Shown in pieces: positions 23,179 to 41,541 of a DNA stretch of 41,661 nucleotides. Every line of letters starts with the position of its first letter. The first letter of the stretch is position 1. The notes under the pieces were generated by a model. It was not told the origin of the DNA. It ran no database searches and was given only the letters and a program-made list of their open reading frames with translations. The DNA is taken from assembly GCA_002869015.1 (NCBI GenBank), contig PKTT01000044.1, positions 1 through 41,661 on the forward strand. The letters are read 5' to 3'. Origin of the DNA: Deltaproteobacteria bacterium (lineage in GTDB: Bacteria; Desulfobacterota; Deferrisomatia; Deferrisomatales; BM512). Both the position numbers and the translations under genes were made by a program.

Positions 23179-24518
23179 TGCGAAACCTCCAAGAGATTAT
23201 CGAGCGAATTGAGAGAAAGCTGAAGGGAGGGCGCTACCTTCTCAATCTTTCCCTGGAAGAGAGCTTAGCCGTAGAGGTCAAAAGCGGGGAAGCATGTGAG
23301 GTTGAGCATCTAAGGGAGGGTGGACTTGGCCTAAGCGTTGAGCTGCCGGGGGGGAGGGTTGGCTTTACCTCAGCGACATTCGGTGATGAGCCGCCAGAGG
23401 TTGAGCTTCTCTGTGAACGTGCAATCGCCGCCGCTAAGGTCGCCTCTGCTGTAAGGGGAAGCTCCCTGCCGGAGATTCTGGGTAAACCCAAAGATAAATC
23501 GCTGGATATATTGGACCCTCTCTATCTGAATTTCACCCCGGATGTAGCCCTCTCCTATGCGGCCGAGGCGGAGCGCGAGGCCTATGGCGTGGATAAGCGC
23601 GTCACTTCGGTAAGAAGGGCGCGGTGCGAGGGCGGGGTTACCAAGAATGTGGTGGCGGTGGCCGGGGGTCACTATAGTTGGGAGGAGAGCGGCTATTCAC
23701 TTTCCCTTGAAACAGGCGCGCGTGAGGGCGACGAGGGAGAGAGCAGCTGGGCACAGGGCGAAGCGCGTATCTTAAGTTATCTGGACCCTTGCTCCATAGG
23801 CCGCGAAAGCGGAGAGCGGGCTGTCGGGCTGCTTGGAGGAGAGCTGCCCATAAGTGGACGCTATGCTGTGGTTCTTGACTCGAGGGTGGCGCTCGATATG
23901 CTGGACGTTTTCGGCTTCTCCTTGATTGGAGAGAATGTTACGCGGGGCAAATCGCTACTTGCGGGCAGGGTTGGTAAAAGAATCTTCTCAGATAAGTTAA
24001 CCATAGTTGACGATGGTCTTCTCCCGGGAGGACTTAATAGTTCTCCCTTGGATGGCGAGGGGAGCGCAAAAGGCCGCACCGCTTGTGTTGAGGGCGGGGT
24101 CCTCAATGCCTTCCTGTATGACAGGCGTTCCGCCGCCGAGGCTGGAGTAAGTACAACGGGCAATGGCGGAGGAGGGCTTGCTTCGCCAGTTGAACCCTCA
24201 TCCACCAACCTCTTCATAGACTGCGGCGAAGGGCCTTCACGGGAACAACTTGTCCAGAGTCTCAACACGGGCGTGCTCATAAGTGAGGTGATGGGCCTTC
24301 ACACCATCGATCCCATATCCGGGCAATTCAGCCTTGGTTTTTCAGGCCATCTGATTAGGGGGGGAGAAATATTCGCTCCCCTTACTGGTGGCACGATCTC
24401 CGGGAATATATTGGACCTCTTTAATAATGTTGAACTCGTGGGGGGAGATTTGCGCTTTCAGGGGGGATTCGGGGCTCCCTCGCTTCTGCTCTCAGGGGTT
24501 GAGATAGCTGGTCAATAG
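23178..24518 (+). CDS. pmbA: TldD/PmbA-family protein, PmbA (TldE) type
   Basis: A 446-residue member of the TldD/PmbA family. It lacks the HExxxH zinc motif found in TldD, so it is the PmbA/TldE partner. Recognisable parts are AVEVKSGEACEVEHLREGGL, the middle YAVVLDSRVALDMLDVFGF, and the C-terminal LFIDCGEGPS, MGLHTIDPISGQFSLGFSGH and GGTISGNILDLFNNVE. TldD/TldE together form a protease that processes ribosomal peptides such as microcin B17 and the antitoxin CcdA in E. coli. No tldD is in the window. ATG 23178 forms TGATG with the upstream stop; a TTG three bases earlier is the alternative. Its stop overlaps the convergent glycosyltransferase by 7 bases. Confidence 0.9.
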   Translation: MRNLQEIIERIERKLKGGRYLLNLSLEESLAVEVKSGEACEVEHLREGGLGLSVELPGGRVGFTSATFGDEPPEVELLCERAIAAAKVASAVRGSSLPEILGKPKDKSLDILDPLYLNFTPDVALSYAAEAEREAYGVDKRVTSVRRARCEGGVTKNVVAVAGGHYSWEESGYSLSLETGAREGDEGESSWAQGEARILSYLDPCSIGRESGERAVGLLGGELPISGRYAVVLDSRVALDMLDVFGFSLIGENVTRGKSLLAGRVGKRIFSDKLTIVDDGLLPGGLNSSPLDGEGSAKGRTACVEGGVLNAFLYDRRSAAEAGVSTTGNGGGGLASPVEPSSTNLFIDCGEGPSREQLVQSLNTGVLISEVMGLHTIDPISGQFSLGFSGHLIRGGEIFAPLTGGTISGNILDLFNNVELVGGDLRFQGGFGAPSLLLSGVEIAGQ

Positions 24519-25522
24519 AGCAAGAGGTAATCCCTCCCGAATTTGAGGCCGGATTTATTAAGTTCTTTTACCACAAGCTCACGCGAGTCCCTGTGCCTGA
24601 CGGCGACAAGATGGAGATACTTAAAGGGGTCGAGATCGTCCGGGGACAATACAGGCGCTCCGTCAAAATTCTCCCCGGCTTTGACTGGGTCTATGAATGC
24701 CTCTACATGAACGCCGGCTTTATTTAGCTCCCTTTTAAGAAGCCTTCCAGTAATTCCTGCGCCTCTAATTACCAGAGGTAGTTGAGAAAGCTCAGGGTAA
24801 ACCCCTGCTTCCAATAGCGCTTTAAAGTAGGCGGCCTTAATCTTTAAAAAGGCGTCACCGCTCGTTCTTTTTGAGGTTCGGGTCAGCCTCTTTGGGTGGT
24901 CACGCCAGCCAACTGCAAAGCCCTGAGACTTTTCACATTTTACCCCTGAGGAGATGAGGCGCAAAAAAAGCTCATAGTCCTCAGGGAAGGGCCCCTCCCG
25001 GTAACCCCCAGCGATCTTGAGGGCGTTTGTGCGAAAGAGCCACGTGGGATGGGGTAAGGGTGATTCGGTAAGGGCGCTAGCGCGGATATCCTCCGCTGTT
25101 GTCACCGAATTAACCCAGGATAGATAATCTCCCCAACCCTCCCTGCACTCTCCCAGGGGCTTTACCAGCCCACCGACCAGCGCCACCTCCTCGCATCTAT
25201 CAATCAAATCAAGTTGACTGTATAAGCGCTCCGGCAGGGAGATATCGTCGCCATCCATCCGTGCACAAAATAACGTTTTCGCCTCCCCAAGCAATATGTT
25301 CAGCGCTTTGACAATCCCAAGCCCTCTCTCACTCCTCAAGATATTAAAGCGGCTGTCCGCCTTGGCATGGGCAGCCAATATTGACGCAGTTGAGTCCTCT
25401 GATGCGTCATCCATGATGAGGCACTCCCAATCGCCGTAGCTCTGCGAAGAGAGTGAGTCAAGCGCCTCCTGAAGAAAGCTTTCCTCATTCCTGACCGGCA
25501 TCAATATCGTAAGTTTCTTCAT
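24512..25522 (-). CDS. Family 2 glycosyltransferase with C-terminal Rossmann-like domain
   Basis: About 336 residues. The N-terminal 220 form a GT-A fold: LTILMPVRNEESFLQEALDS, ECLIMDDASEDST, and the metal-binding DxD region ARMDGDDISLPERL, followed by FPEDYELFLRL. This is the usual inverting GT2 pattern with an unknown nucleotide sugar. Residues from about 245 (LPLVIRGAGITGRLLKREL, then VEAFIDP) look like a small nucleotide-binding domain similar to the N-terminus of PglD-like sugar enzymes. ATG 25522 is used because GGA precedes it at a normal distance; ATG 25528 is possible, and a longer frame to 25567 would include a terminator. It lies behind the pilin terminator, so it is probably transcribed separately or by read-through. 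Glycosylation of pilins is possible but unproven. Confidence 0.82.
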   Translation of the reverse strand: MKKLTILMPVRNEESFLQEALDSLSSQSYGDWECLIMDDASEDSTASILAAHAKADSRFNILRSERGLGIVKALNILLGEAKTLFCARMDGDDISLPERLYSQLDLIDRCEEVALVGGLVKPLGECREGWGDYLSWVNSVTTAEDIRASALTESPLPHPTWLFRTNALKIAGGYREGPFPEDYELFLRLISSGVKCEKSQGFAVGWRDHPKRLTRTSKRTSGDAFLKIKAAYFKALLEAGVYPELSQLPLVIRGAGITGRLLKRELNKAGVHVEAFIDPVKAGENFDGAPVLSPDDLDPFKYLHLVAVRHRDSRELVVKELNKSGLKFGRDYLLLY

Positions 25523-25530
25523 GCTCATCC

Positions 25531-25561
25531 GAAAAAAAGGGCCGCCGCATAAATTGCGGCG
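25531..25561 (-). terminator. Terminator after the pilW-like gene
   Basis: Read on the minus strand, CGCCGCA and TGCGGCG form a perfect seven-pair stem around ATTTA, followed within four bases by seven or more T. It lies 27 bases after the stop of the giant pilin gene and directly before the glycosyltransferase start. Confidence 0.85.
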
Positions 25562-25588
25562 ACCCATAGGTCTTAACAGTGTTTAGCG

Positions 25589-28500
25589 CTATTTCATAAT
25601 ACACTGCATTGCAAAGTCCTTAAAGCCAGCCCAAGTTGCAGCGCCTAGGTCGCTCTGTGATTCGGCGTAAGGGCCAACGTAGAGGGGCGTCCCCACCGGA
25701 ATTGCATAGGTAAGTGAATCTATGAAGGTCCAGCTGGCATCCGCCGGGTACTTGTAGTAGGCGGAGTAAACCCCCGCATTTCTAACTACAAGAATGTTGT
25801 AGGGCGGTTTGACGGTTATGCCCGTCGCCTTGTCTACCTCGCCGGCGCCAATATCATACTTTATGTGCAGCTCCTGGGGTTCGTATTTTGCAGTCAGATT
25901 TGCCAGATAAAGTGGCGGGTTAGCGTATCCGACAACCGTAAAGTGGTTGGAGGGGCCAAATTGAGCCTCTCGAACCGAGAGACCCTGTCCCGATGTTGTG
26001 ATATCGGCATCATCGCTGTCAATCATGCCGGTTGCGGTGACCGTTGCGAAAAAATCCTCGCCTTCGAGTGTTTCATTGAGGCTCTGGTCCACCGTTGCTT
26101 GCCCGTACATCCTGCCGCCTATCGCCGGGTCATTGAAGACGACAACGCCAAGCCCCAGCGGATATTCGTTGTTCAAGGTTTGGATTGTCAGGTAGCCGGA
26201 GTAGCAATTACTGCCTACACAGGCAAAGCGCCAGGCCGGGTCCAGATATGTGAAGTTGTCGACCCAGTCAAGCTGGCAGTTGTCGATGGTTATCGTCGTT
26301 TCGCTTACGACAGGGGTCGTGGCATCGGGGCAGCCAGTTGATATCTCCGGCGATGTGTAATTAGTGTACGCGGTAGCGGTCAGGAGGTAATCGCCGTCGG
26401 GCCACTCGGAGATATCTATGCTGTTAGCAGCGCAGCTGTCAGAGGGGAATAGACCGCAGTATTCAAAGGTCGAGTCTATTATCGGCGATATACCCATCGG
26501 GTCAGGGCTGATTGTAAATTCAACCCTGTCTATCTCATCAAGCCCCGTAACCGGTGCCGCCGGGTTGAACTGGTGGTCGTCAAAGGGCTCAGCCTGCCAG
26601 TAAAGATTAACTCCGTTAGTCGTTAGCTCGCCCCACGTTGAGAAGTTGGGCGGGTGAACCGTCGCTACGGTAGGCTCCGGGCAGTCGACGTAGAAGTCTA
26701 CAATGTCCGCAACGCAGTTCAGCTCATCGTAGGCGTCAATGCTGACCGGCTCGACGGCGTAGTTGAAGGTGACGTTGACAGTCTCTCCGGACATTGTGTC
26801 GAAGGTGACCGCTGTGGGAGGTCTCGCGACCCAGAGTATAGTACCGTTACCTCCAGTGGCGTTTAGCGTTACAGTGTCGCCGACCTCATAGCGTGTTTTG
26901 ACCGGGCTGCTCTGACGAATCGCCAGCGGCGATGATACTGTAACAATAGATTCGTAAATACCGCCGCATATTCCAGTGGTGTCCTCAGCGCGAACCACGG
27001 TAGTGCCGCACTTCTGCGCTGTAATCCAGGCGGTATGAACGCCTTCGCCCAGCGGGGTGACAGTTACAACGTCATTGCCAAGCGGGTCGGGGTCAGCAGT
27101 CCATACCCAGTCGGAGTAGGGGTATGGGTCGCCATCACTATTGACAATTGTAAGTATTTCGGTGTCGCCGTTAAAGTCCGATATCTGGAAGGGCGCGTTA
27201 ACAGGGTCTTCCGGGACGGAGGGCGGCTCCATGGCGTAGCCAACGCACTCTGTTGCAACGCGTGTCGGTATGGCCTGCGTGCAGTTGTTGGCGTCGACCA
27301 CCCAGATGAGGGCGTCGCCTACGTTGTGCGCGGTTACGTAGCCGGATGAAGAAACCGTGGCTATGTTGGTGTCTGAGGACTGCCAGACTATGTCGCCATA
27401 TGAGTCTTTTACCGTCAGCTGCTGAGAATCACCTACTCCCAGGTCAAGTACCCTTGGGGAGACCTCAAGGGCGCAGCACTCAACGCATAGTGCGTTCTGG
27501 CTGCCGGATTCGTTGAGGGAGTAGTTGTACCAGACCTCCGGGTTACCGTTCCCGCTGTAGCCGCGTTCGGAGTTAAGCGCGCCATATACCTGGGGGTTAC
27601 CGCTTCCGGCGAATTCGCCGTCACAGTAAACCGCGCCGTTGATATGAACTCCTACAGTCGGATTGGGTGACAGCCTAGATACTGTCGGGTCGGGTCTTAT
27701 AGGTATATCTGCCTCGGTGAAGTTTATGGAGTTGTGGTTATAGTGCATCTCCTGCCCTGGCGGTGTCTGTACTACAATCGGGGTGGTTCCGCCTAGGCCG
27801 CCAAAGGACATCGATCCTGCGAGATATATTATGCCTGTGGTGTAAAAATCGCCGGAGATCTCGTGGCGCGGCAGGGCGTCTGTCATTACCTGACCCGCTT
27901 TCGCGTTGTGGATGGCGGGGGTATTGTCAATTAGCTCGCCTGTGAGAGATTGGTCGGGAACCCATGCCGGTCCACCTGCTACAGTGTTTTTGAGCCCCCA
28001 TGTATCGATGAAGACATAATCGCCATCGTAGTTGGGATTAGAGTCGGGGAACCGGAGCAGTTCGTTAATGTTGTTTAGAAGCACCTTGGTCTTGGGGTTA
28101 TAGAGCCCCGGCACAGCGCTTCCCATATCAACTGACAGCCAGTAGGAGTTTTCACTGTGGTTAAGGGCAAGCTCACGCATAAGGTCGTATTGGAGCTGGA
28201 CGATTAGCTCACTTATCCTCGCGCGGCTTATGTTTGTGAAGTAGTTGCCGTACCCGTCGGGTTTATAGGGCTGGTAGACGAAGCCGGGTATATAGTTGGG
28301 GTCTGTGGTCGGGTAGACCCCCTGGATGAGGCCATCGTTGACCTCTCCCGTTCCGGCCTTGCCTACGTAGACATCGACAAAGCGGTCGGAGTTGTTCGCG
28401 CCACCGAAGGGGGCGCCGTTAAACTGACCGTCAATACGCTTTTCAATACGCTTATTGACTGAGGGGACGGTTAGCTGCCCGCGTACGACGACGTCGCCCC

Positions 28501-31500
28501 AGTGGACTAGGAAGTTGCCGGACCACGCCGCGCCGCCGCCGGAGGTGATCGCGTTGGGGAAGCAGACCGGGATGGGGGGAATAAGGGTGATATTCCACGC
28601 GTCAGCCGGACAGGAATCAGCGCCATCGTTGTGGTTTGTCCAGGGCTGCACAGAAATCGATGAACCACGCCCCTCCGGGTACTCAAGGGAGTCGCTGTAG
28701 GGCACGCCTTTGAGAGCGTTGTAGGGGATCATGTTTATCTGCCCCCTGAAGGTTGTATTTGCAGTGCCGGTAGAGGTTAGCGGGTAGAAGTAGATCCGCT
28801 CCCTGTCGTACTCCTGCCCCACCTCATCCAGCATATAGATGGTGAGAGGGGTCGGGAGATGACCATCGACCAGGTTTAGTGCGGTGTCGTCAAAGCAGTG
28901 ATCAAACTGGAAGTATATCTCGAAGAGGTTGGAGGCGCAGTATTTGCCACCGTTAACTATTGGATTGACGATATTGTCAGCCAGATAATACATCTGAAAG
29001 TTCTGGCAGAGGTTGTCAACCGTCAGCGTGCCTTCGTTGTTGCATGACCATGCGGGGCTTTCGGCTTCTTCTATTAACTGTGATGATAACTCGTAGCCAC
29101 CTGTAACCAGGGGCTTAAAATAAGCCGCTGTTATTCCTATCGAATCTGCTTTAACGGAAGTGGCCTTTATTGTGATAGTTTCGCCTGTGGCCGTATTACC
29201 GATGGAGAGCTTGGCGTAAGCCGCCGCGCGCTCGTCATCGCCTGGGTAGTCGGAATCGGGGATTGTGAAGACAAGTGCTTTTCTCGGATTTGCCGGGTTG
29301 ACCGTTACCGGGGAGGCTGTAGGTGTAACACCGGCCAGTTCGCCAGGGCTTGAGAACCAATAGGGGTTAGTGCCGCCGACTATTTCAAGTTCTACAAAGC
29401 GGTATTGAGGCTGGCAGAAGGCAACCTTCACCTCACTAACGCCCTCACAGGTAGCGACAACGTCGGGGGAAACCGTTACGCTACAATCCTTGCATGGTGG
29501 TACGTCCGGTGTGATGGTGGTAGTTGTACCCGCGTAGCCTACTGGGGTGAGGTCGAAGGGAGGCCTCATCGGAGAGGCTGCGGTAAAATCGCCGGGGCTT
29601 ACGGAGCACCAAGAGTCGTAATATACGCGGTACTCGCCATCTAGGTAATGGTTATCAAGATATATAGCGTCTGCGGGGTTTTTATTTACCGGCGAAGAGC
29701 CGGGGTTGTCGAAGAGGCCAGCTGTATCGGTGAAGGCATAATAATCATCATACCCTGTCTGGGGATTGTTTGGATCCCAAGTTGGGTTAGTGGTCGTGTC
29801 CTCATTGGTCGGGTAGAAGACGGTGTAGAGGTTGCCGCGCTGGTCATCGGGGATGAATGATGAGCTTTGCAGCTGAGCAAGCGTAGAATACCCTGAGACA
29901 GGCGCTGGAAGAGTGCTTTTCACCCTTCCCTTATCCTGAGGGGTGTTTGTGTTGTAGACGCGGTTTCCGTTGCAGTCTAATACCTCAAGGGATGCATAGA
30001 GCCTGTCTGTGTATAGTTCGCAGTCCTGAGAGACCTGCCCGCTAATATTATCTGTTAGCATGTTGTAGCTGTTTGGCGCCCAGGGATAGAGGTGTATCAG
30101 ATCAGAAGCGAACATTTGATCGTTTACCGGCGCAGGAGTAGATGCACCGTAATCGCCTAAGTGGAAGAGCTTGACCAATGCTGGCAGCACACCACCCTCC
30201 GGGTAGACGTTGAGGTTGAAAAATCCAAACTCCGGGTCGGGTGTCGTCACTGACGGGTCTATCCAGGCTTTCGGGCCAGAAACCGAAAAATACTCAAAGG
30301 ATTTGGTCAAGTTGACTGTGGCGCCGGCTTCAGTGTGGTCATATTGCGGAGTAACCGAAGCGCCGTTGTCCACGGTGTTGTACATCTTGCCTAGCTGGTT
30401 TCCGAGGTCGTCGTAGACGCTGAATTTGAAGTCGCTGGTTGGCACGACCTCATTGCCGCAAGAGTCAGTCACCTTTGCGCTGAAGATGTAATTATCATCG
30501 TAGCAGGTGGTCATGGGGTCGGCAAAGCCATCTGTATGGGGGGGGACGTCGAGGTCAACTGTTGCAGACCTGTAATCTTTTGCCACGAAATTGACATAAA
30601 CGTTTGTAGGCTCGCCGGGTAGAAAGTTCACCGTGTAGGTGGCGTAAATTGTTACATCTCCGGCGTCGCCGCAATCAACCTTAGCCGCAGCTTCGACTAT
30701 AAAGGCCCTAGCAGGCCCGTCGTAGGAGAGAACCGTTGTGGCGACGCCTCCACTTGTCGTAGTGGTTGTTGGCGAGAGGGAGGGCTGCTTTGGCTCAGAA
30801 GGATTGAGGTTTAAAATGTCAAAGGTTACCGTTGTTGCATCGCTTACAAGGTTGTTGTCGCCATCTTTAACAGTGGCTTTAAGTGTTACTCCATCTGGGC
30901 ATATCGGTATTCCGTCGGGCTCGAGGGAGATTGTGCCGCAGTTATTTGTTGCCAGGTTTCTTAATGCCGAACGCGATTTGTAAGTTCTACGCCTGTACTG
31001 AGCGTTTAACGTTGCGTCATCGTCACCTGTTCCCCCGAATGTGAAACCAGCGCGGGGAGTTCCAGATGCGTTATAGGTGCCGACCGAGTAGTTCTCGACA
31101 GGGTACTCCTCTGAAAATTTAGGGTCTCTCTTCTCCGCCCGGAGGACTATCTCCGACTCTACCGTCTGTATCAACGATACCTCAGGGTTGGTCCCCGTAT
31201 TGGTAAGCTCATAGGGCATGTCCAGCGGTTCTTTGGTATTTGGGTCGGAGGGTATGCGGATGCCGTTTTTGTCGTAGTATTTTAGGACGAAGTTGTCAAC
31301 GTTAGTGGCGATTAGCTCCCTGTAGGGCTCTGCCCCGGAGGGGTTTGCGTTGTCGGGAGTGTAACGGTAGAGGTTGTAGGGAGGGCCATCGAGAAATAAA
31401 TCTATATCAACGTCAAACTGCTCCCCCGCTTCGACGGTGCCATCGCCGTCCTGGTCGAAAGCCACGGGTATAGTAATTTTCTCCTTGGCGGTGCCGGATT

Positions 31501-31867
31501 CCCTTGAGACAGCGAAGATGGCTATCTCGTCATTTGACACAACATTGGGAGTTTCACCATGAGGGTCGTCAAATTGCACGGCGATAAAGTGGTCTCCAGC
31601 CGCCATAATGGGCCGCCCAAGCATTGAGACTACTTCATTGCGGTCGGCACTTGCTCCTGCCTGCTGGATAGCTTTCAGGAGAAAATCCTCAGCTACCCTG
31701 GCGCGCTGCTGCATCTTCGCCGTCTCGTCCTGAATGGAGTAGCTCTGCTGCTGCGAGGTGAATAGCTGCCATATACCGGCTATTAGGATGAGTCCAATCG
31801 CCATAGCGATCATAAGCTCGATCAGCGTCATGCCTTTGGAATTCCGCTGCTTTTTCGCCGCGTTCAT
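25589..31867 (-). CDS. Giant PilW-like minor pilin with Ig-like and lectin-like modules
   Basis: A 2092-residue protein. It opens with a type III prepilin signal (SKG-MTLIELMIAMAIGLILI, Glu at +5), cut by the prepilin peptidase. Residues 1-310 match PilW-type minor pilins, including a calcium-loop-like DQDGDGTVEAGE near 138-149 and an end YRRRTYKSRSALRNLATN. From about 325 come Ig-like segments (VTLKATVKDGDNNLVSDAT resembles Big_1). Residues of about 1120-1455 look like a PilX-type C-terminal module (IIYLAGSMSFGG, GSGNPQVYGALN). About 1465-1535 is a Big_2-type domain (SPRVLDLGVGDSQQLTV, SSDTNIATVSSSGYV). The last 220 residues resemble a concanavalin/DUF1349-like beta sandwich. Typical PilW is only a few hundred residues. 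Start ATG 31867 has GGAGG upstream. It is probably a pilus-tip adhesin. Confidence 0.8.
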   Translation of the reverse strand: MNAAKKQRNSKGMTLIELMIAMAIGLILIAGIWQLFTSQQQSYSIQDETAKMQQRARVAEDFLLKAIQQAGASADRNEVVSMLGRPIMAAGDHFIAVQFDDPHGETPNVVSNDEIAIFAVSRESGTAKEKITIPVAFDQDGDGTVEAGEQFDVDIDLFLDGPPYNLYRYTPDNANPSGAEPYRELIATNVDNFVLKYYDKNGIRIPSDPNTKEPLDMPYELTNTGTNPEVSLIQTVESEIVLRAEKRDPKFSEEYPVENYSVGTYNASGTPRAGFTFGGTGDDDATLNAQYRRRTYKSRSALRNLATNNCGTISLEPDGIPICPDGVTLKATVKDGDNNLVSDATTVTFDILNLNPSEPKQPSLSPTTTTTSGGVATTVLSYDGPARAFIVEAAAKVDCGDAGDVTIYATYTVNFLPGEPTNVYVNFVAKDYRSATVDLDVPPHTDGFADPMTTCYDDNYIFSAKVTDSCGNEVVPTSDFKFSVYDDLGNQLGKMYNTVDNGASVTPQYDHTEAGATVNLTKSFEYFSVSGPKAWIDPSVTTPDPEFGFFNLNVYPEGGVLPALVKLFHLGDYGASTPAPVNDQMFASDLIHLYPWAPNSYNMLTDNISGQVSQDCELYTDRLYASLEVLDCNGNRVYNTNTPQDKGRVKSTLPAPVSGYSTLAQLQSSSFIPDDQRGNLYTVFYPTNEDTTTNPTWDPNNPQTGYDDYYAFTDTAGLFDNPGSSPVNKNPADAIYLDNHYLDGEYRVYYDSWCSVSPGDFTAASPMRPPFDLTPVGYAGTTTTITPDVPPCKDCSVTVSPDVVATCEGVSEVKVAFCQPQYRFVELEIVGGTNPYWFSSPGELAGVTPTASPVTVNPANPRKALVFTIPDSDYPGDDERAAAYAKLSIGNTATGETITIKATSVKADSIGITAAYFKPLVTGGYELSSQLIEEAESPAWSCNNEGTLTVDNLCQNFQMYYLADNIVNPIVNGGKYCASNLFEIYFQFDHCFDDTALNLVDGHLPTPLTIYMLDEVGQEYDRERIYFYPLTSTGTANTTFRGQINMIPYNALKGVPYSDSLEYPEGRGSSISVQPWTNHNDGADSCPADAWNITLIPPIPVCFPNAITSGGGAAWSGNFLVHWGDVVVRGQLTVPSVNKRIEKRIDGQFNGAPFGGANNSDRFVDVYVGKAGTGEVNDGLIQGVYPTTDPNYIPGFVYQPYKPDGYGNYFTNISRARISELIVQLQYDLMRELALNHSENSYWLSVDMGSAVPGLYNPKTKVLLNNINELLRFPDSNPNYDGDYVFIDTWGLKNTVAGGPAWVPDQSLTGELIDNTPAIHNAKAGQVMTDALPRHEISGDFYTTGIIYLAGSMSFGGLGGTTPIVVQTPPGQEMHYNHNSINFTEADIPIRPDPTVSRLSPNPTVGVHINGAVYCDGEFAGSGNPQVYGALNSERGYSGNGNPEVWYNYSLNESGSQNALCVECCALEVSPRVLDLGVGDSQQLTVKDSYGDIVWQSSDTNIATVSSSGYVTAHNVGDALIWVVDANNCTQAIPTRVATECVGYAMEPPSVPEDPVNAPFQISDFNGDTEILTIVNSDGDPYPYSDWVWTADPDPLGNDVVTVTPLGEGVHTAWITAQKCGTTVVRAEDTTGICGGIYESIVTVSSPLAIRQSSPVKTRYEVGDTVTLNATGGNGTILWVARPPTAVTFDTMSGETVNVTFNYAVEPVSIDAYDELNCVADIVDFYVDCPEPTVATVHPPNFSTWGELTTNGVNLYWQAEPFDDHQFNPAAPVTGLDEIDRVEFTISPDPMGISPIIDSTFEYCGLFPSDSCAANSIDISEWPDGDYLLTATAYTNYTSPEISTGCPDATTPVVSETTITIDNCQLDWVDNFTYLDPAWRFACVGSNCYSGYLTIQTLNNEYPLGLGVVVFNDPAIGGRMYGQATVDQSLNETLEGEDFFATVTATGMIDSDDADITTSGQGLSVREAQFGPSNHFTVVGYANPPLYLANLTAKYEPQELHIKYDIGAGEVDKATGITVKPPYNILVVRNAGVYSAYYKYPADASWTFIDSLTYAIPVGTPLYVGPYAESQSDLGAATWAGFKDFAMQCIMK

Positions 31868-31997
31868 TTTTTCGCCTCCTGTGGGTCCCCGGCCCATTCC
31901 TTACGGGCGCTGAGAGACCGCAGGTTTCCCCCCGTGGGTGCCTGCTTAAGTGTCTGCCTCTATTTATCTTTCGCCAACGCCCCCTAGGAGCGTCAAC
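31868..31997 (-). other. Structured spacer upstream of the giant pilW-like gene
   Basis: This 130-base gap is the only long spacer inside the minor-pilin run. Read on the minus strand it can form three hairpins: GACGCTCC/GGGGCGTT (31976-31994, with wobble pairs, just after the pilX stop), GCAGG/CCTGC (31920-31945, with an inner CCC/GGG), and GCCC/GGGC (31892-31908), followed by the GGAGG ribosome site. No T-run follows any stem, so none is a standard terminator. I looked for cyclic-di-GMP and cGAMP riboswitch cores and did not find the GCAAAGCC or GGGACGC elements. It may be an RNA-processing or translation-control site. Confidence 0.4.
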
Positions 31998-33941
31998 CTA
32001 TTCTTCCTGCCAAGCCTCACGCTCCACCCCGTAAATTTTCGGTATGTAGGGCGGATTTGTATACATTACATCCCTCAAAGCCGGGTCCCAACCTATCGAG
32101 TATAAGGGTGGTGAGGTGAGCCCGGAGTTGTATGCTCCCGTTGCCTGACCGCTGAACCAGGGGCTAATGAAAGCGCCGTTGGTCTCCAGCGTTTTAAACC
32201 CCCAGTTTTCAACTTTGCGCAGAAGGTCCTCAACGCCTTCCGCTACCCCTCCGCCGCCTCCGGTAGTTGATTCCCTGCCGGTGATAAAGGCGGCGTTGTA
32301 AGTAGTAGCGTTGTCGACGCTTGTAATTCCTGCAACCACCCCATAGTGTTTCTCTCCCCAATCGTTGGAGAGGACGGTGATGGCATCGGAAATAATCGCG
32401 AAGGGGAGGCTGGTAACGTTGAGTTCCCCATCAATATATACCGGATTTGGTGTTACGAAGGTCGTTGGGACTACAAGTGAGCCTGTTACAGATGCATATG
32501 AGGGCTCAATTGCCGGATTTCTCTCACGGCCCTTGAATGAGCCGATGAGCTTTATCGCCTCCAATCCGCCAACACCCCTTGAGCGCTCGGCATAGATAAG
32601 AAGCCCTCTGTCACCTGACGGGAAGCTCCCCGTCTCCGCATTGTAATAGTTCATGTACCAGTGGCTTAGCCGCTGTAAATCGATTACGGTGAAATTTACC
32701 TGTGTGCCCTCGCGTGGGTCGTTCGTCTCAAGGATAGTGGGGTAATCCTGGTCTACTGTTGCCGGATTGGCGGCTGGCTTATCCTCAACAGAGTAGACTA
32801 TTGACCCTTGTACAAAGGTAGACGTATTTCCGTCCGGGTTGATTCTCACCGCTGAGGACCAGCCAGTGAAGTCGGTAGGATTTCGGATATCGTTGGTAAC
32901 GTCTACCGGCGCGCCTCCATCAATGCTGCATTTAATCGATATGGCGCCGCCATCGTTTGTGATGTGTAAGGTATCTACATCTTCCTCAAAAGGCAGCGTA
33001 CCCTGATGAAGTGAATAGCTCTCATAGCGCCCGCCGCTCTGGATGGCGCTTCTGTCTATTGTGGTGAGGGTGTCCACTCCGGTGCGGAGAATAGAGTCAA
33101 GCCCGAAGGCGAAGAGATCCTCGACCTTTGCCCTAGTCTCGGGGAGTATGTCTTCAGTTAGGTTAACGTCCGTGGAGGTAGTCCCACCCGCGTCAGGGAC
33201 GGCGATTATCACGTTGCCCGCCCCGGCGCCGCCCGAGGTCCCGTTGGTGTAGTGAACCTGGTGGTAGAGTATGTCGCCCGTCGCTGTTATGGCGTTGGAG
33301 TCAAAAGTCGGGTCGTATGTGAACTCTATCCCCGCCCTCGGCGCCATATAGATATCACCGTTGGCGTGCACCCTGCCGCCCTCGACTGAGAGGAGGGAGC
33401 TCTGCTGGGGGCGCCAGTTCATATCCCCCTCGTAGAAGGCGAGGTACTGCGTCACCGGCCGCTCCAGAATTTTTATCGTCTCAACAATCTCTTCCCTGTC
33501 GGTGCCCGTGTTGGATACGGCGCGCCCGGTGATCAAGTATTGGTATGAGATGTTGGTTATCGGCCGCTGATTTTCAGTGGTCGAGTAGACAATGGGCTGT
33601 GGCGTGGTCGCAGTTGGGTCTTCGCTGTTGGGTGGGAGGTCCACCTGATAGGTGATGGTGTAGCCGTTGAAATCACTGCCCGTTACGGGGGCGGTTATAG
33701 CAACAGTGGCTCCATCAACTTCATAGATTTTGCCGGCCCTGAACTCAGCTAGAATATCGCCTACGGCAACGTCCAATGCTGCCTCCGCCGCGTAGAAGGA
33801 CTGCCTAGATGCGCGTTGGTTAGTTACTGAGCGGGTATCCAGGGTGGCGCTCAAGAGCGCCCCTGCGCCCATAAGCGAGAGGAGCGCCAATACGAGGAGG
33901 CTCGTAACGAGGACTGCGCCGCGATCTTTTTTTATGCGCAT
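31998..33941 (-). CDS. PilX-like minor pilin
   Basis: A 647-residue protein. The N-terminus (IKKDRG-AVLVTSLLVLALLSLMGAG, then ASRQSFYAAEAALDVAVGDI) matches the PilX N-terminal domain. A cleavable Gly is followed by Ala and there is no Glu at +5, the feature that in GspK-type tip pseudopilins marks the end subunit. The rest is a long periplasmic or surface region, with VEGGRVHANGDIYMAPRAG and DRGLLIYAERSRGVGGLEA, PSYASVTGSLVVP, and a glycine run near residue 570; it lacks Cys pairs in its core. It lies 2 bases after pilV, with GGAGG before its ATG. It is long for a PilX but not rare in deltaproteobacteria. Confidence 0.82.
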   Translation of the reverse strand: MRIKKDRGAVLVTSLLVLALLSLMGAGALLSATLDTRSVTNQRASRQSFYAAEAALDVAVGDILAEFRAGKIYEVDGATVAITAPVTGSDFNGYTITYQVDLPPNSEDPTATTPQPIVYSTTENQRPITNISYQYLITGRAVSNTGTDREEIVETIKILERPVTQYLAFYEGDMNWRPQQSSLLSVEGGRVHANGDIYMAPRAGIEFTYDPTFDSNAITATGDILYHQVHYTNGTSGGAGAGNVIIAVPDAGGTTSTDVNLTEDILPETRAKVEDLFAFGLDSILRTGVDTLTTIDRSAIQSGGRYESYSLHQGTLPFEEDVDTLHITNDGGAISIKCSIDGGAPVDVTNDIRNPTDFTGWSSAVRINPDGNTSTFVQGSIVYSVEDKPAANPATVDQDYPTILETNDPREGTQVNFTVIDLQRLSHWYMNYYNAETGSFPSGDRGLLIYAERSRGVGGLEAIKLIGSFKGRERNPAIEPSYASVTGSLVVPTTFVTPNPVYIDGELNVTSLPFAIISDAITVLSNDWGEKHYGVVAGITSVDNATTYNAAFITGRESTTGGGGGVAEGVEDLLRKVENWGFKTLETNGAFISPWFSGQATGAYNSGLTSPPLYSIGWDPALRDVMYTNPPYIPKIYGVEREAWQEE

Positions 33942-33943
33942 CG

Positions 33944-34582
33944 CTACTGCCTCCTGTTGACTAGAGAGACGAAGGTGACGCTACGCTCCGTGCCAGTTCT
34001 ATCTATAAATTTGGAAGTCACGGTCAGCTCCGCGTAATCAACGCCAATCGGCTCGACGGTCCACGCCGTAGTCACCACAAAGGCGGTGGTGCCGGCTGGG
34101 CCAAGCACCTCTTCATCCCAAGTAGCGCCGAAAACGCCGTCACCTGAACCGCCGTCCTCGTGCCCGCCATCGTCATACATCACGAAGTAGTCTGGCTTAG
34201 CGTCGGCTTCTCCGTAATCTGGGTTCCATGGCGCCACTTTGCTAGCGCCGCCCTTACCGCCTGAGAGCATGCCGTCAACTATCAAAAGGGGTTCCTTGAC
34301 GGTCCCGGAGATGTCCTTTTGGGCGAAGGAGGTGAAGTCCGTCTCCGTGCTTGTGAGATAGTCGAAGTCGAGGGCTGAGTACCTGTCCGCGCGGTCGCTC
34401 CTCGCGTAGCTGCGCAGCTCCTCCATCTTCTCCTGTGCCAGGATTGTCGCTTCGCTCATCATGTGGTTGAAGGTGTTTGCGTTGATATAGGCCAGCGAAA
34501 GCTGGATCACCGCCAAAAGCCCTATAAGGAGGATCACAAGCGAGATAAGCACCTCAATGAGGGTGAAACCCTTGCGATTCAT
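33944..34582 (-). CDS. PilV-like minor pilin
   Basis: A 212-residue prepilin with the cleavage site RKG-FTLIEVLISLVILLIGLL (Glu at +5), then SEATILAQEKMEELRSYA, the usual helix continuation in PilV-type proteins. The C-terminal globular part has a Gly/Asp-rich loop (MYDDGGHEDGGSGDGV) and ends in beta strands typical of the family (FIDRTGTERSVTFVSLVNRR). ATG 34582 directly abuts the fimT stop, with GGGAGGGG at a normal distance, so the genes are coupled. Confidence 0.87.
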   Translation of the reverse strand: MNRKGFTLIEVLISLVILLIGLLAVIQLSLAYINANTFNHMMSEATILAQEKMEELRSYARSDRADRYSALDFDYLTSTETDFTSFAQKDISGTVKEPLLIVDGMLSGGKGGASKVAPWNPDYGEADAKPDYFVMYDDGGHEDGGSGDGVFGATWDEEVLGPAGTTAFVVTTAWTVEPIGVDYAELTVTSKFIDRTGTERSVTFVSLVNRRQ

Positions 34583-35209
34583 CTAAAACCCCTCCCATTT
34601 GTAATCACCGGTCTCTGTATCTGGCGGAGTATATTTAAATGCTCTTATTATACCTGCCCTTTGAACCTGCACTGCGCGAGTGTTGTAAAGCTCGGTGTTT
34701 GAGCTGTGGGTAATATAGAACTCACCGCCGTAATTACTTATTCCGTTTGGCATAAAGGTCAACTGGTTGTAAGTGGCCGACCCCCCTGGCACACCGAAAG
34801 CGATTGCGGCGGAGGTGTTTTCGGTGATGGATTGGGGAGGGAAGGATACTCCGCTTGGGCGGTTTACCTTGACACCCGGAAAGTCCGGGTTGGCACGACC
34901 GGAGAGCTCGAAGAGGTATTTTTTAATCAGCGTGACTGAATTGTCGTCCTCAATCCGCTCAACAAAGAGAGTCTGCCCGCTCTGGTCTATCCTTATCCTG
35001 TAATCCAAGTTCTTCGCTATCGCTTCAGCGCGGGCCAGTTGAAGCTGCGCGGTCAGCGCTTTGGTCGCGGAGTTAACCTTGTAGGTCGGAATGTAAATAA
35101 AGAGGCCGGGTGCTGCGACGAGCGCCAAAATGGCAATCACGGCTACCGTTATCATGAGCTCGACCAGGGTAAAGCCCTTTTTGCGTTTACTGCCCAAAGT
35201 TAAAAGCAT
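34583..35209 (-). CDS. GspH/FimT-family minor pilin
   Basis: A 208-residue prepilin. The processing site is RKKG-FTLVELMITVAVIAILALV with Glu at +5; VNSATKALTAQLQLARAEAI is the characteristic GspH/FimT helix, followed by YRIRIDQSGQTLFVERI, GVSFPPQS and LTFMPNGISNYGGEFYITH, the conserved beta-sheet core. It is the first of the four minor pilin genes and is preceded by AGGATC at a ribosome-site distance from the ATG. Minor pilins of this type prime pilus assembly at the inner membrane. Confidence 0.88.
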   Translation of the reverse strand: MLLTLGSKRKKGFTLVELMITVAVIAILALVAAPGLFIYIPTYKVNSATKALTAQLQLARAEAIAKNLDYRIRIDQSGQTLFVERIEDDNSVTLIKKYLFELSGRANPDFPGVKVNRPSGVSFPPQSITENTSAAIAFGVPGGSATYNQLTFMPNGISNYGGEFYITHSSNTELYNTRAVQVQRAGIIRAFKYTPPDTETGDYKWEGF

Positions 35210-35314: not shown

Positions 35315-37108
35315 TCACTTTTCTTCGATGAAGGTGTGGCGTAGTACCTCCGCAGGTGTTGTCGCTCCTGCAGCCACCTTCTCAGCACCTGAGTTCAGGA
35401 GTGTCTTCATCCCGTCGTTTATAGCTATCTCGGTTATTCGCCCTGTAGTTGCTTTTGCGTGTATCGCATCGCCTATATCTTTTGTTATCGGCATTACCTC
35501 AAAGATACCAGTCCTTCCAATGTAGCCTGTTTGGCGGCATTTGGGGCAACCCGGCCCCAACTTTATCACTGTATCTTCAGGTAGCCCCAACATTGCCGCC
35601 TCATGGGCGGGGATGACGACATCCTTGGCGCAGTAGCTGCAGGGGCTCCTTACAAGGCGCTGCGCCATGGTGCCGACTAGGGTCGAGGCCAGCAAAAAAG
35701 GCTCCACGCCCATGTCGATCAAGCGGTTTACCGCGCCCGGTGCATCGTTAGTGTGAAGGGTGGATAGCACGAGGTGGCCCGTTAGCGCTGCCTGGATAGC
35801 CATTTTGGCCGTCTCGCTGTCGCGGATCTCACCCACCATAATTATGTCGGGGTCCTGCCTGAGGAGTGTCCTAAGGGCGCTGGAAAAAGTGAGGCCGATG
35901 CCAGGCTGCACCGCCACCTGATTAAATTCAGGTGATATATTCTCAATCGGGTCCTCAACGGTGGAGATGTTGAATTCATCCGTGGAGAGTTTTTTTAACG
36001 CGGTATAGAGGGTGGTTGTCTTACCCGAACCAGTTGGGCCGGTAACCAGGAATATGCCATGAGGACGGGCGAGGAAGCTCTCCACTAGCCTCAGATCGTT
36101 TCCCCAAAGGCCAAGTTGAGAGAGGTCCTGCTCAAGGAGGAGGGGGTCGAAGATTCTCATGACCACCTTCTCGCCAAATGCCACGGGCAGGGTCGAGACC
36201 CTCATCTCCAGCTTCGTTGATTCATATTCTGTTTTGATCCTGCCGTCCTGAGGGACGCGCTTCTCCGCGATATCCATCCTCGCGAGGGTCTTCAGGCGGG
36301 AGGTGATGGCGGCATGTACCCTTCTGGAGAACCTGTGCGCCGTGTGCAGCACCCCGTCTATTCTGAGGCGCACGACCGCTTCATTTCGCTTGGGCTCTAT
36401 GTGTATGTCGCTGGCGCGTTGGTCGAAGGCGTAGCGGAAGAGATGGTCCACCGCGCGGACTATGTGGCTATCGGTCGCGTCGAGGTCCGCGTCGGAGCGC
36501 ATGGAGAAGAACTGCTCAAGGTTCTGGATGTCGGGAGACTTCGCAAGGTCCTTTTCAGCCTCGGCGACTGAGTTTTTAAAGCCGTAAATCTCTTTTATGA
36601 GGTGGAGTATCTCCGTCGCCGGAGCGATGTAGACCGTCAGAGACGCTCCAAGCTTTGCCCTTACGGTGTCCAGCACCTCCTGATCGAGGGGGTCTGCGAG
36701 CGCGACTGGCGCTGGCCGCGCTTTTGGGTCTAGGACGAGGACCGCGTGTTTGAAGGCATATGCGCGGGGCAGGGACCTGACGATAGCTTCGCTGTCAAGC
36801 TTAAGCGGGTCTATCTCTATGGTGGGAACCCTGAGTCGCTTGGAGATCGCCGCAACTATCTCTCCCCCTTCAAGGGGCTCTTTTTCACGTCCCGGCGGGG
36901 TCAGCCCGAAAGATTGGATTAGAGATACAGGGCTCTGCGCTTCCACGGCGGAGCGTTGCGCCGCTATCTTGGCCGCTTGAATCTTCCGCCGCTCGCGTAC
37001 GTATTTACCCTGTATTTCGCTTAAAAGCCCATCTTCAATAAGCGCGGCCAGGGCCATATCCAGTGTAAGGCCTCTTGCCGCGGCGCCCCTCGGGGCTTCT
37101 TCAGCCAA
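35315..37108 (-). CDS. pilB: Type IV pilus assembly ATPase, PilB/GspE family
   Basis: A 597-residue hexameric secretion ATPase. The N-terminal region (1-200) is only loosely like the MshEN domain, and a clear cyclic-di-GMP RLGxxL motif is not seen. The ATPase has ASDIHIEPKRNEAVVRLRID, Walker A VTGPTGSGKTTTLYTAL, the Asp box STVEDPIE, Walker B DPDIIMVGEIRDSETA, the His box LVLSTLHTNDAPGAVNRL, and a four-Cys zinc site (CSYC, CPKC) near 500-540, which indicates an extension ATPase rather than PilT. It starts with TTG 37108, supported by AAGGAG 8 bases upstream. The adjacent minor pilins favour a pilus role over type II secretion. Confidence 0.9.
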   Translation of the reverse strand: MAEEAPRGAAARGLTLDMALAALIEDGLLSEIQGKYVRERRKIQAAKIAAQRSAVEAQSPVSLIQSFGLTPPGREKEPLEGGEIVAAISKRLRVPTIEIDPLKLDSEAIVRSLPRAYAFKHAVLVLDPKARPAPVALADPLDQEVLDTVRAKLGASLTVYIAPATEILHLIKEIYGFKNSVAEAEKDLAKSPDIQNLEQFFSMRSDADLDATDSHIVRAVDHLFRYAFDQRASDIHIEPKRNEAVVRLRIDGVLHTAHRFSRRVHAAITSRLKTLARMDIAEKRVPQDGRIKTEYESTKLEMRVSTLPVAFGEKVVMRIFDPLLLEQDLSQLGLWGNDLRLVESFLARPHGIFLVTGPTGSGKTTTLYTALKKLSTDEFNISTVEDPIENISPEFNQVAVQPGIGLTFSSALRTLLRQDPDIIMVGEIRDSETAKMAIQAALTGHLVLSTLHTNDAPGAVNRLIDMGVEPFLLASTLVGTMAQRLVRSPCSYCAKDVVIPAHEAAMLGLPEDTVIKLGPGCPKCRQTGYIGRTGIFEVMPITKDIGDAIHAKATTGRITEIAINDGMKTLLNSGAEKVAAGATTPAEVLRHTFIEEK

Positions 37109-39662: not shown

Positions 39663-39719
39663 GGCATTCATTTTATGCGTCGCCGGGTCTATGAAGGCCT
39701 GGGCCGGACACACTTTTAA
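39648..39719 (+). CDS. Possible 23-codon upstream ORF in the barrel leader
   Basis: GTG 39648 follows GGAGGG at an ideal 8-base spacing and opens a 23-codon frame, V-L-L-H-G-G-I-H-F-M-R-R-R-V-Y-E-G-L-G-R-T-H-F, ending at TAA 39717-39719. It overlaps the first ATG of the barrel gene in another frame and stops 13 bases before the internal ATG 39733, so it could couple translation to that start. No family is recognised and the frame may be accidental. Confidence 0.25.
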   Translation: MLLHGGIHFMRRRVYEGLGRTHF

Positions 39720-41541
39720 ACGGGCAGCCTGTATGTCACTACTGGGTTTGCGTTATTTTCCTTTGACTTTGTCGGCCTTTGCCGCCCTCATTGTCTCTAT
39801 TAATGTAAACGCCGCCGAATGGACCGTTTCCGCTGACGCCTCCACTGAAATCACTAATGAAAAGAGCGATGAGGAGACCAAAACCTCCGTCTCTGAAGAA
39901 GAGTCTTTTTCACTCTCCTACAAACACGAAATAAACAAAGATCTCTCCACCTCCATAGATTATACCTTCGACCGTGCCTACGACACCGCTGACAGGGAGT
40001 GGGATGAGACCACCATCGACAACGAGTTAACCTATGAGCTCACTGGCGCATGGTGGGGGGTATCCGCGGGGTGGGCGCAGACAATATCCGAGTATGACGA
40101 CCCCGACTCAGAGGACACCACTGAGAACTCTTACGAATTCGAGGCGGTGCTGGAACCAGAGAGCCAGGAGTTGCCAGACCTAAAGTACAACCTTGAAGTC
40201 GATGACGACACCACCGATAAATCCTATGAGGGTGTCTTTGAATACAAGCTCCTCCATGAGGACTTGGTCTTCTCCCTCGAACTCCAAAAAGAGACGACCA
40301 CGCCCAAGGACGACCTTGAGGACCGTACCGACGACCGCTCATTCACAACCGGGCTGACCTATGACCTCACGGTAAACGATGCCTGGAAGCTCTCCTTGGA
40401 GCATGAGCACACCCACGAACAGAATTTGACAAACGACACAGAGGGTCGTCTTCTAGACGCCGAGGAATCGATGGAGGATTCATTAAAGGCCGATCTGGAG
40501 TTCACCCCCTATGACTGGATAGATTTTGCCTTCTCGTGGGAGGAGAACTGGACCAACGATCTTATGATCGATGAGCCGACGCAGTATACGGTGGATTTTA
40601 CAGCCGAGGTTACCTATAAACCCCCGGTAACTGAATATATCGATCCTGAAGTGTATTATTCCTATGAAAGCAGTGAGGAGCATGGCTCAGACTCCGATAC
40701 AAACGAGATAACGAACTCTTCCGGCGTCTCCATTGATTACAAGCCATTTGAAAAATATACCTTCAGCACCTCTTATGAATGGGAGCTGGTAAACTCCTAT
40801 CCCGAGGCGGAGAGCTCTACTGAGACCCGCACGGACGACATCTCTTTTGAGTTCGACGCGCAGGTTTTTAAGGATCAGATTTCCTTTACCATTACCAAAG
40901 ATTATTCTTATGAATGGGAAAATGGGGTTCAAACCACAAAAACGGATGATTGGGAGTTGTCGGTAGAGGCTCAATTTGAAAACTTTCCCAACCTAGAGGT
41001 TAAACCAACATTTAGCACCACAACAGAAAAAGACCTTCAGGCGAGCACCAAAGATGTCGAAAATGAATTGGAAGTAGAGTTGGTCTACACAATTGCATTG
41101 GGTGACGTTACAGAGTTTCAGGTTGACCACACTTACACAAGAACGGCTACATTCCCTGATGACGGGAAGGATTATATCTCGCGCGAGGACGCCACTGATT
41201 TTTCACTCAAATTCAGTGATTTTCTGCGCGCAATGACGCTTGAGCTTGCCTACTCATACGAGGCCTCCGATGAGAGTGAGGATGATCTGCCTCCTGAGTA
41301 TGGCTACAGCTTTGAAAGCAGCTACACATGGACTGCTCTTGACCTCTATGAATTTGAACTTGAGTTCGGCCACGACTGGGGAACCGACACCGACGCAACA
41401 AAGGATTATGGGGCCTCATTGAGCTTTCCTATTTTTCACGACCACTTTCAATTTACTTTTGAGTATACTTTTGAAACACAAATCGAAGGCGAAACTGACG
41501 ATTCTGAAACCTACCTTATTGAGGTTAGTGGAGAATTTTGA
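39691..41541 (+). CDS. Very acidic exported protein, probable outer-membrane beta barrel
   Basis: A 616-residue protein. A hydrophobic signal segment (LTLSAFAALIVSINVNAA) is followed by likely cleavage before EW. The mature part is dominated by Asp, Glu, Thr, Tyr and Ser in short amphipathic strands (FSLSYKHEINKDLSTSIDY, FSTSYEWELV, ITKDYSYEW) separated by acidic turns, with no Cys, and ends in Phe as outer-membrane barrels do. By rough strand spacing it may hold two dozen strands. No substrate, haem site or family was recognised. ATG 39691 is the first in frame but lacks a ribosome site; ATG 39733 would give a shorter signal peptide and may be the real start. The negative charge might bind divalent metals or cationic ligands, but that is speculation. 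Confidence 0.65.
   Translation: MKAWAGHTFKRAACMSLLGLRYFPLTLSAFAALIVSINVNAAEWTVSADASTEITNEKSDEETKTSVSEEESFSLSYKHEINKDLSTSIDYTFDRAYDTADREWDETTIDNELTYELTGAWWGVSAGWAQTISEYDDPDSEDTTENSYEFEAVLEPESQELPDLKYNLEVDDDTTDKSYEGVFEYKLLHEDLVFSLELQKETTTPKDDLEDRTDDRSFTTGLTYDLTVNDAWKLSLEHEHTHEQNLTNDTEGRLLDAEESMEDSLKADLEFTPYDWIDFAFSWEENWTNDLMIDEPTQYTVDFTAEVTYKPPVTEYIDPEVYYSYESSEEHGSDSDTNEITNSSGVSIDYKPFEKYTFSTSYEWELVNSYPEAESSTETRTDDISFEFDAQVFKDQISFTITKDYSYEWENGVQTTKTDDWELSVEAQFENFPNLEVKPTFSTTTEKDLQASTKDVENELEVELVYTIALGDVTEFQVDHTYTRTATFPDDGKDYISREDATDFSLKFSDFLRAMTLELAYSYEASDESEDDLPPEYGYSFESSYTWTALDLYEFELEFGHDWGTDTDATKDYGASLSFPIFHDHFQFTFEYTFETQIEGETDDSETYLIEVSGEF

Follow-up and report, generated by a model that had tools for sequence, protein, structure and literature searches.

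A 2092-residue PilW-type modular pilin with a predicted lectin-fold tail, a candidate pilus-tip adhesin in an order without detected PilY1

The window analysed here, a stretch of 41,661 nucleotides, carries on its minus strand a run of type IV pilus genes in the order ATPase-fimT-pilV-pilX-giant pilW, and this arrangement, with pilW last, is conserved across the order to which the source genome belongs. The run is headed by a gene for a PilB/MshE-like extension ATPase (35315..37108, 597 aa; PF00437 and PF05157), followed by genes for three minor pilins: a FimT/GspH-type protein (34583..35209, 208 aa; PF12019), a PilV-type protein (33944..34582, 212 aa; TIGR02523 just below the cut-off) and a conserved PilX-type protein of 647 aa that matches PilX_N (PF14341) and lacks Glu5 (31998..33941). 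The last gene, at 25589..31867, encodes a giant PilW-type modular prepilin. The longest open reading frame at the locus spans 25589-31897 (2102 aa), and the ATG at 31867, preceded by AGGAGGCGAAAAA and lying after an AGGAGG, gives a product of 2092 aa ending at the stop codon 25589-25591. The length claimed in the earlier note, which gave no strand, thus stands, as does its placing of the gene at the end of the minor-pilin run. Class III signal, Gly-1, hydrophobic helix and Glu5 are all present at the N-terminus, and the signal peptide with its N-methylation motif, SKG/MTLIELM, occupies 31772..31846 (minus strand). N_methyl (PF07963) is significant in Pfam at 1.8e-8 and TIGR02532 scores above its cut-off; together with Glu5 and the position in the fimT-pilV-pilX-pilW run, these agree with the PilW-type prepilin start proposed earlier. 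The mature protein is computed to have 2080 aa, 225.6 kDa, a pI of 4.2 and 35 cysteines.

Several other features surround the gene. The gap between pilX and the giant pilW contains a leader with two hairpins (31870-31950, minus strand) that ends at the ribosome-binding site and is conserved in the sister species (G001), where the pairing of the second hairpin is maintained; a riboswitch was considered and rejected, as Rfam gave no match and folding was barely better than that of shuffled sequences. Directly downstream of the giant pilin, and in the same place in three other genomes (G001, G002, G003), lies a gene for a family-2 glycosyltransferase that carries an additional C-terminal part (24512-25567, minus strand) and might glycosylate the pilin. 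On the plus strand, an acidic repetitive protein of 616 aa (39691-41541) with no significant Pfam match is probably an outer-membrane barrel.

Homologues of the giant PilW split into two paralogous groups. Group A comprises the orthologues of the window gene (36-46% identity over the best segments), and group B, at about 31% identity to it, is found as an additional locus in several genomes of high GC content. Along the protein, the pilin head and residues 1101-1550 are the best conserved parts and the tail the least conserved, and 17 cysteines are invariant across 17 homologues from both groups. The PilW-type head reaches to about residue 316 (30950..31771) with about 50% identity among orthologues; PF16074 matches it in 6 of the 17 homologues (best 1.3e-5), the window protein itself giving no match. 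The following Ig-like or stalk region (28598..30949), whose cysteines are conserved in both groups, contains Big_1 after the pilin head in 8 of the 17 members, and the Ig-like domains described there in the earlier note are therefore supported mainly through homologues. A conserved module (residues ~1101-1470, 27488..28597) with 42-64% identity among orthologues precedes a Big_2 Ig-like domain (residues 1478-1537, 27287..27466), which is confirmed by PF02368 at 2.2e-7. Residues ~1550-1869 (26291..27250) probably form further Ig-like beta domains, as the AlphaFold2 (AF2) model is all-beta there; the number of these domains differs between homologues, whose regions match Big_2, Big-like and BiPBP_C.

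The module of residues ~1100-1470 is, by profile search, confined to the order. A profile of residues 1085-1560 gave full-length matches in 11 of the 12 genomes of the order and in none of the 285 other genomes of the phylum, and the matches outside the order cover the Big_2 end, one of them beginning slightly earlier. Part of this segment had been read as a PilX-type module, but alignment by hhalign with the adjacent PilX gave a probability of only 0.7%, and DUF7305, a domain of a relative's large PilX, was found in 1 of the 17 family members at E=0.013. An internal module derived from PilX is thus rejected at the sequence level, and the name was not adopted.

The C-terminal domain (residues 1870-2102, 25592..26290, minus strand) is predicted to adopt a ConA-like lectin fold and appears as an exchangeable tail. 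The AF2 model, of medium confidence (pLDDT 68.6, pTM 0.76), is a two-sheet antiparallel beta sandwich, and nearly all of its top 50 Foldseek matches are ConA-like proteins, legume lectins for the most part, at a probability of 1.00 and a TM of about 0.4-0.5. Foldseek with the 1018-residue C-terminal half was dominated by tandem Ig proteins and did not resolve single domains. The window protein's own tail shows no similarity to lectin families in Pfam or to PDB sequences, so that its likeness to lectins comes from the fold and from the tails of orthologues. At the same position, two orthologues (G007 and G010) carry two or three domains of the H-type lectin family (5e-12 for the best match) and a third (G011) carries DUF1349 (1.2e-8) or GH43_C2. 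The lectin-like beta sandwich of the earlier note, and with it the resemblance to a binding fold, is therefore borne out by the model, although a fold alone is not proof of binding and we infer that the tail may bind glycans.

Comparison of two species of one genus (G007 and G011) points to the tail as the variable part. Identity between their proteins is 54-75 out of 75 positions per window as far as residue ~1425, reaching 75/75 twice, whereas beyond it identity drops to background and the tails are unrelated, three H_lectin domains versus a DUF1349/ConA-like one. Judged from these alignments, a domain has been exchanged at the distal end while the rest of the protein stayed conserved, the pattern expected of a ligand-binding tip. 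Nevertheless, in group B and in two members of group A (G008 and G009) the protein ends before the lectin position; the lectin tail is thus not universal, which weighs against the reading favoured below.

The source genome encodes a type IVa pilus (T4aP) machine in which PilM, PilN, PilO, PilP and the secretin PilQ lie in one run (contig C27), the platform protein PilC is found together with PilT and PilB (C64), and two pilA-like genes lie elsewhere (C39). It also carries a separate type II secretion system (T2SS). A further PilB-like ATPase of 578 aa (L107:5385-7121, on C56 of the source genome G000), with 25-31% identity to the others, has no platform of its own. The earlier note had seen no PilY1. 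Two profiles, PF05567 and a purpose-built one, find no PilY1 in any of the order's 12 genomes, whereas the same kind of profile search finds it in 160 of the 285 other genomes of the phylum-wide survey (297 genomes in total). The PF05567 beta-propeller is likewise found neither in the giant PilW nor anywhere in the source genome. As PF05567 also gave no match in 14 control genomes, positive controls were drawn from the phylum instead, and the second profile (A4) was built from relatives; within the order no match is better than E=2, and outside the order it reaches down to 1e-124 in 14 of 27 relatives.

On balance, we consider it probable that in this order the role of PilY1 falls to a modular PilW adhesin located at the tip, acting with an enlarged PilX. 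The pilin head would be processed and then built into the type IVa pilus within a FimT-PilV-PilW-PilX priming and tip complex. The stalk of about 1,550 residues, made of Ig-like domains, cysteine-rich and probably disulfide-bonded, and the order-specific module, would project from the tip, and the lectin-type domain at its end (ConA-like here, H-type lectin or other tails in relatives) may bind a glycan of a surface or a cell. The covalent PilW chain and the enlarged PilX would thus supply adhesion at the tip, and probably capping as well, where other diderm T4aP use PilY1. The analysis shows the gene with its operon and prepilin motif, the lack of PilY1 throughout the order, a tail of lectin fold and the exchange of tails among close relatives; the tip location, the binding of glycans and the functional replacement of PilY1 are what we infer. 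A PilY1 gene, an assembly join and a tail unlike any binding fold, each named in the earlier note as refuting, were all looked for and none was found. The pilin-anchored tip adhesin proposed in the earlier note is kept to that extent; the fusion with PilX that it included is not. The strongest caution comes from M. xanthus, in which a bulky PilW3-sfGFP is incorporated yet makes the machine jam, possibly at the secretin (PMC7541494). How a 226-kDa PilW gets past PilQ therefore has to be explained; narrow Ig-like domains strung in a flexible chain might fit through. The order represents few independent evolutionary events, which also weighs against this reading.

The division of labour between the two large pilins may also differ from this. 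A possible, though somewhat less probable, reading is that the enlarged PilX (647-776 aa in the order), without Glu5 and in a GspK-like position, mainly replaces the priming and capping functions of PilY1, the giant PilW being only an added adhesin. PilX is conserved beside the giant PilW, with column identities averaging 52% across the order and a weak match to GspK, and in M. xanthus PilX has been placed atop the complex (PMC7541494). Its size tracks PilY1, which keeps this reading alive: PilX measures 145-214 aa beside PilY1 in three relatives (G021, G031, G033) and at least 398 aa in the relatives examined without it, namely G020, G028, the order itself and G024 (805 aa), a comparison of few genomes that is not corrected for descent. 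Two of these PilY1-less genomes (G020 and G028) have a PilW of ordinary size, so loss of PilY1 alone does not require a giant PilW. These sizes suggest that the tip pilins grow as a set where PilY1 is missing. Against PilX as the main replacement, it is PilW that carries the lectin-type domains and shows the tail swap. Two of the genomes without PilY1 deserve separate mention. G024, from another family of the phylum, encodes giant N-methylated pilins of 1706 aa (L093:5862-10979) and 1385 aa (L065:9501-13655, with fn3 domains) and is a first case of a giant PilW outside the order; in G028, a 419-aa protein (L066:7329-8588) matches PilX_N and also contains DUF7305 (1.9e-16).

Another alternative is that the giant PilW decorates the pilus shaft or serves a separate type IV filament rather than the T4aP tip. 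The dedicated ATPase with an MshEN domain at the head of the operon, which is included in group A operons wherever the extent of the contig lets the operon be seen and was not found in a search of the group B loci, would suit such a filament, but the canonical PilB likewise has MshEN. The source genome contains only two inner-membrane platform proteins, one each for the T2SS and the T4aP, and no third one, so the minor pilins of the window, which lack a platform of their own, most likely serve the T4aP. As bulky modular pilins have additionally been argued to fit at tips only (PMC8179133, PMC9934059, PMC6561018), we regard this alternative as unlikely. In two genomes, G008 (L082) and G009 (L084), giant pilW genes of groups A and B lie on one contig a few kilobases apart, which suggests duplication of the minor-pilin set.

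That the length of the giant PilW is an artefact, with separate genes fused by an assembly or frame error, is hardly conceivable: although pilins of this length are generally rare (860 aa at most in a 2021 survey, PMC8179133), single-frame, stop-free homologues occur in 11 of the 12 genomes of the order, one of them closed as a single contig, and the closest of them shows 90% identity from end to end, so the gene is neither an assembly join nor a product of chance. Uncut homologue frames range from about 1530 to 2103 residues, and no giant PilW homologue was matched in the twelfth genome (G004, 650 contigs).

As a general concept, the adhesin anchored by a pilin is not new: such proteins are called modular pilins (PMC8179133, PMC9934059), and over 1200 of them in 264 architectures have been described, the longest with 860 residues (PMC8179133). 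The giant PilW probably belongs among them, as its pilin head bears extra modules that are not specific to type IV pili: Big_2, the ConA-like fold and, in orthologues, H_lectin or DUF1349. Its closest counterparts are PilC and PilB of S. sanguinis, which likewise have a class III signal, a pilin head with Ig-like and ConA-like lectin modules, a predicted role as tip adhesins and no PilY1 in the species; PilC binds glycans and is predicted at the tip (PMC9934059). These proteins of about 53 kDa belong to a monoderm, whereas here a diderm with a PilQ-type secretin encodes, within a full FimT-PilV-PilW-PilX set, a 226-kDa pilin whose central module is specific to the order and whose tails are swappable. 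CofB and TcpB of type IVb pili are also long minor pilins located at the tip, with an H-type-lectin-like domain 3 at the C-terminus (PMC9565799; compare the G007 and G010 tails), but they are far smaller, form homotrimers binding a secreted protein and lack the FimT-PilV-PilW-PilX set. Thermus ComZ, a minor pilin onto which a large beta domain is grafted and for which a tip position is argued (PMC6561018), differs in that a beta-solenoid of ~380 residues is inserted within the pilin fold, in its DNA binding and in its much smaller size. PilY1/PilC (PF05567) shares the presumed role, a large modular tip protein working with minor pilins, but has no homology, is not a pilin, ends in a beta-propeller and is absent from this order. 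Large minor pilins, of unknown role, have also been noted in the Pih pilus of Pelobacter carbinolicus (PMC3543383). A literature search, mostly of papers outside subscription, returned no description of pilins of this kind. What sets the present case apart is the size, the order-wide occurrence of a diderm T4aP with a full minor-pilin set and no PilY1, the module confined to the order and the exchange of lectin tails.

In published descriptions, PilC/PilY1 at the tip counts among the parts of the conserved T4aP machine of diderms (PMC10191384). It seems an even call whether an entire diderm order runs its T4aP without PilY1, with a pilin-anchored chain of ~2,000 residues and an enlarged PilX that prime, cap and adhere, and with recombining lectin tails that alter the grip. 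With a clade that has the T4aP machine and minor pilins but no PilY1, one can ask what PilY1 truly contributes. A pilin of 226 kDa tests the upper size of a folded tip able to pass the PilQ secretin, and the exchange of tails among close relatives provides naturally occurring ligand specificities for comparison.
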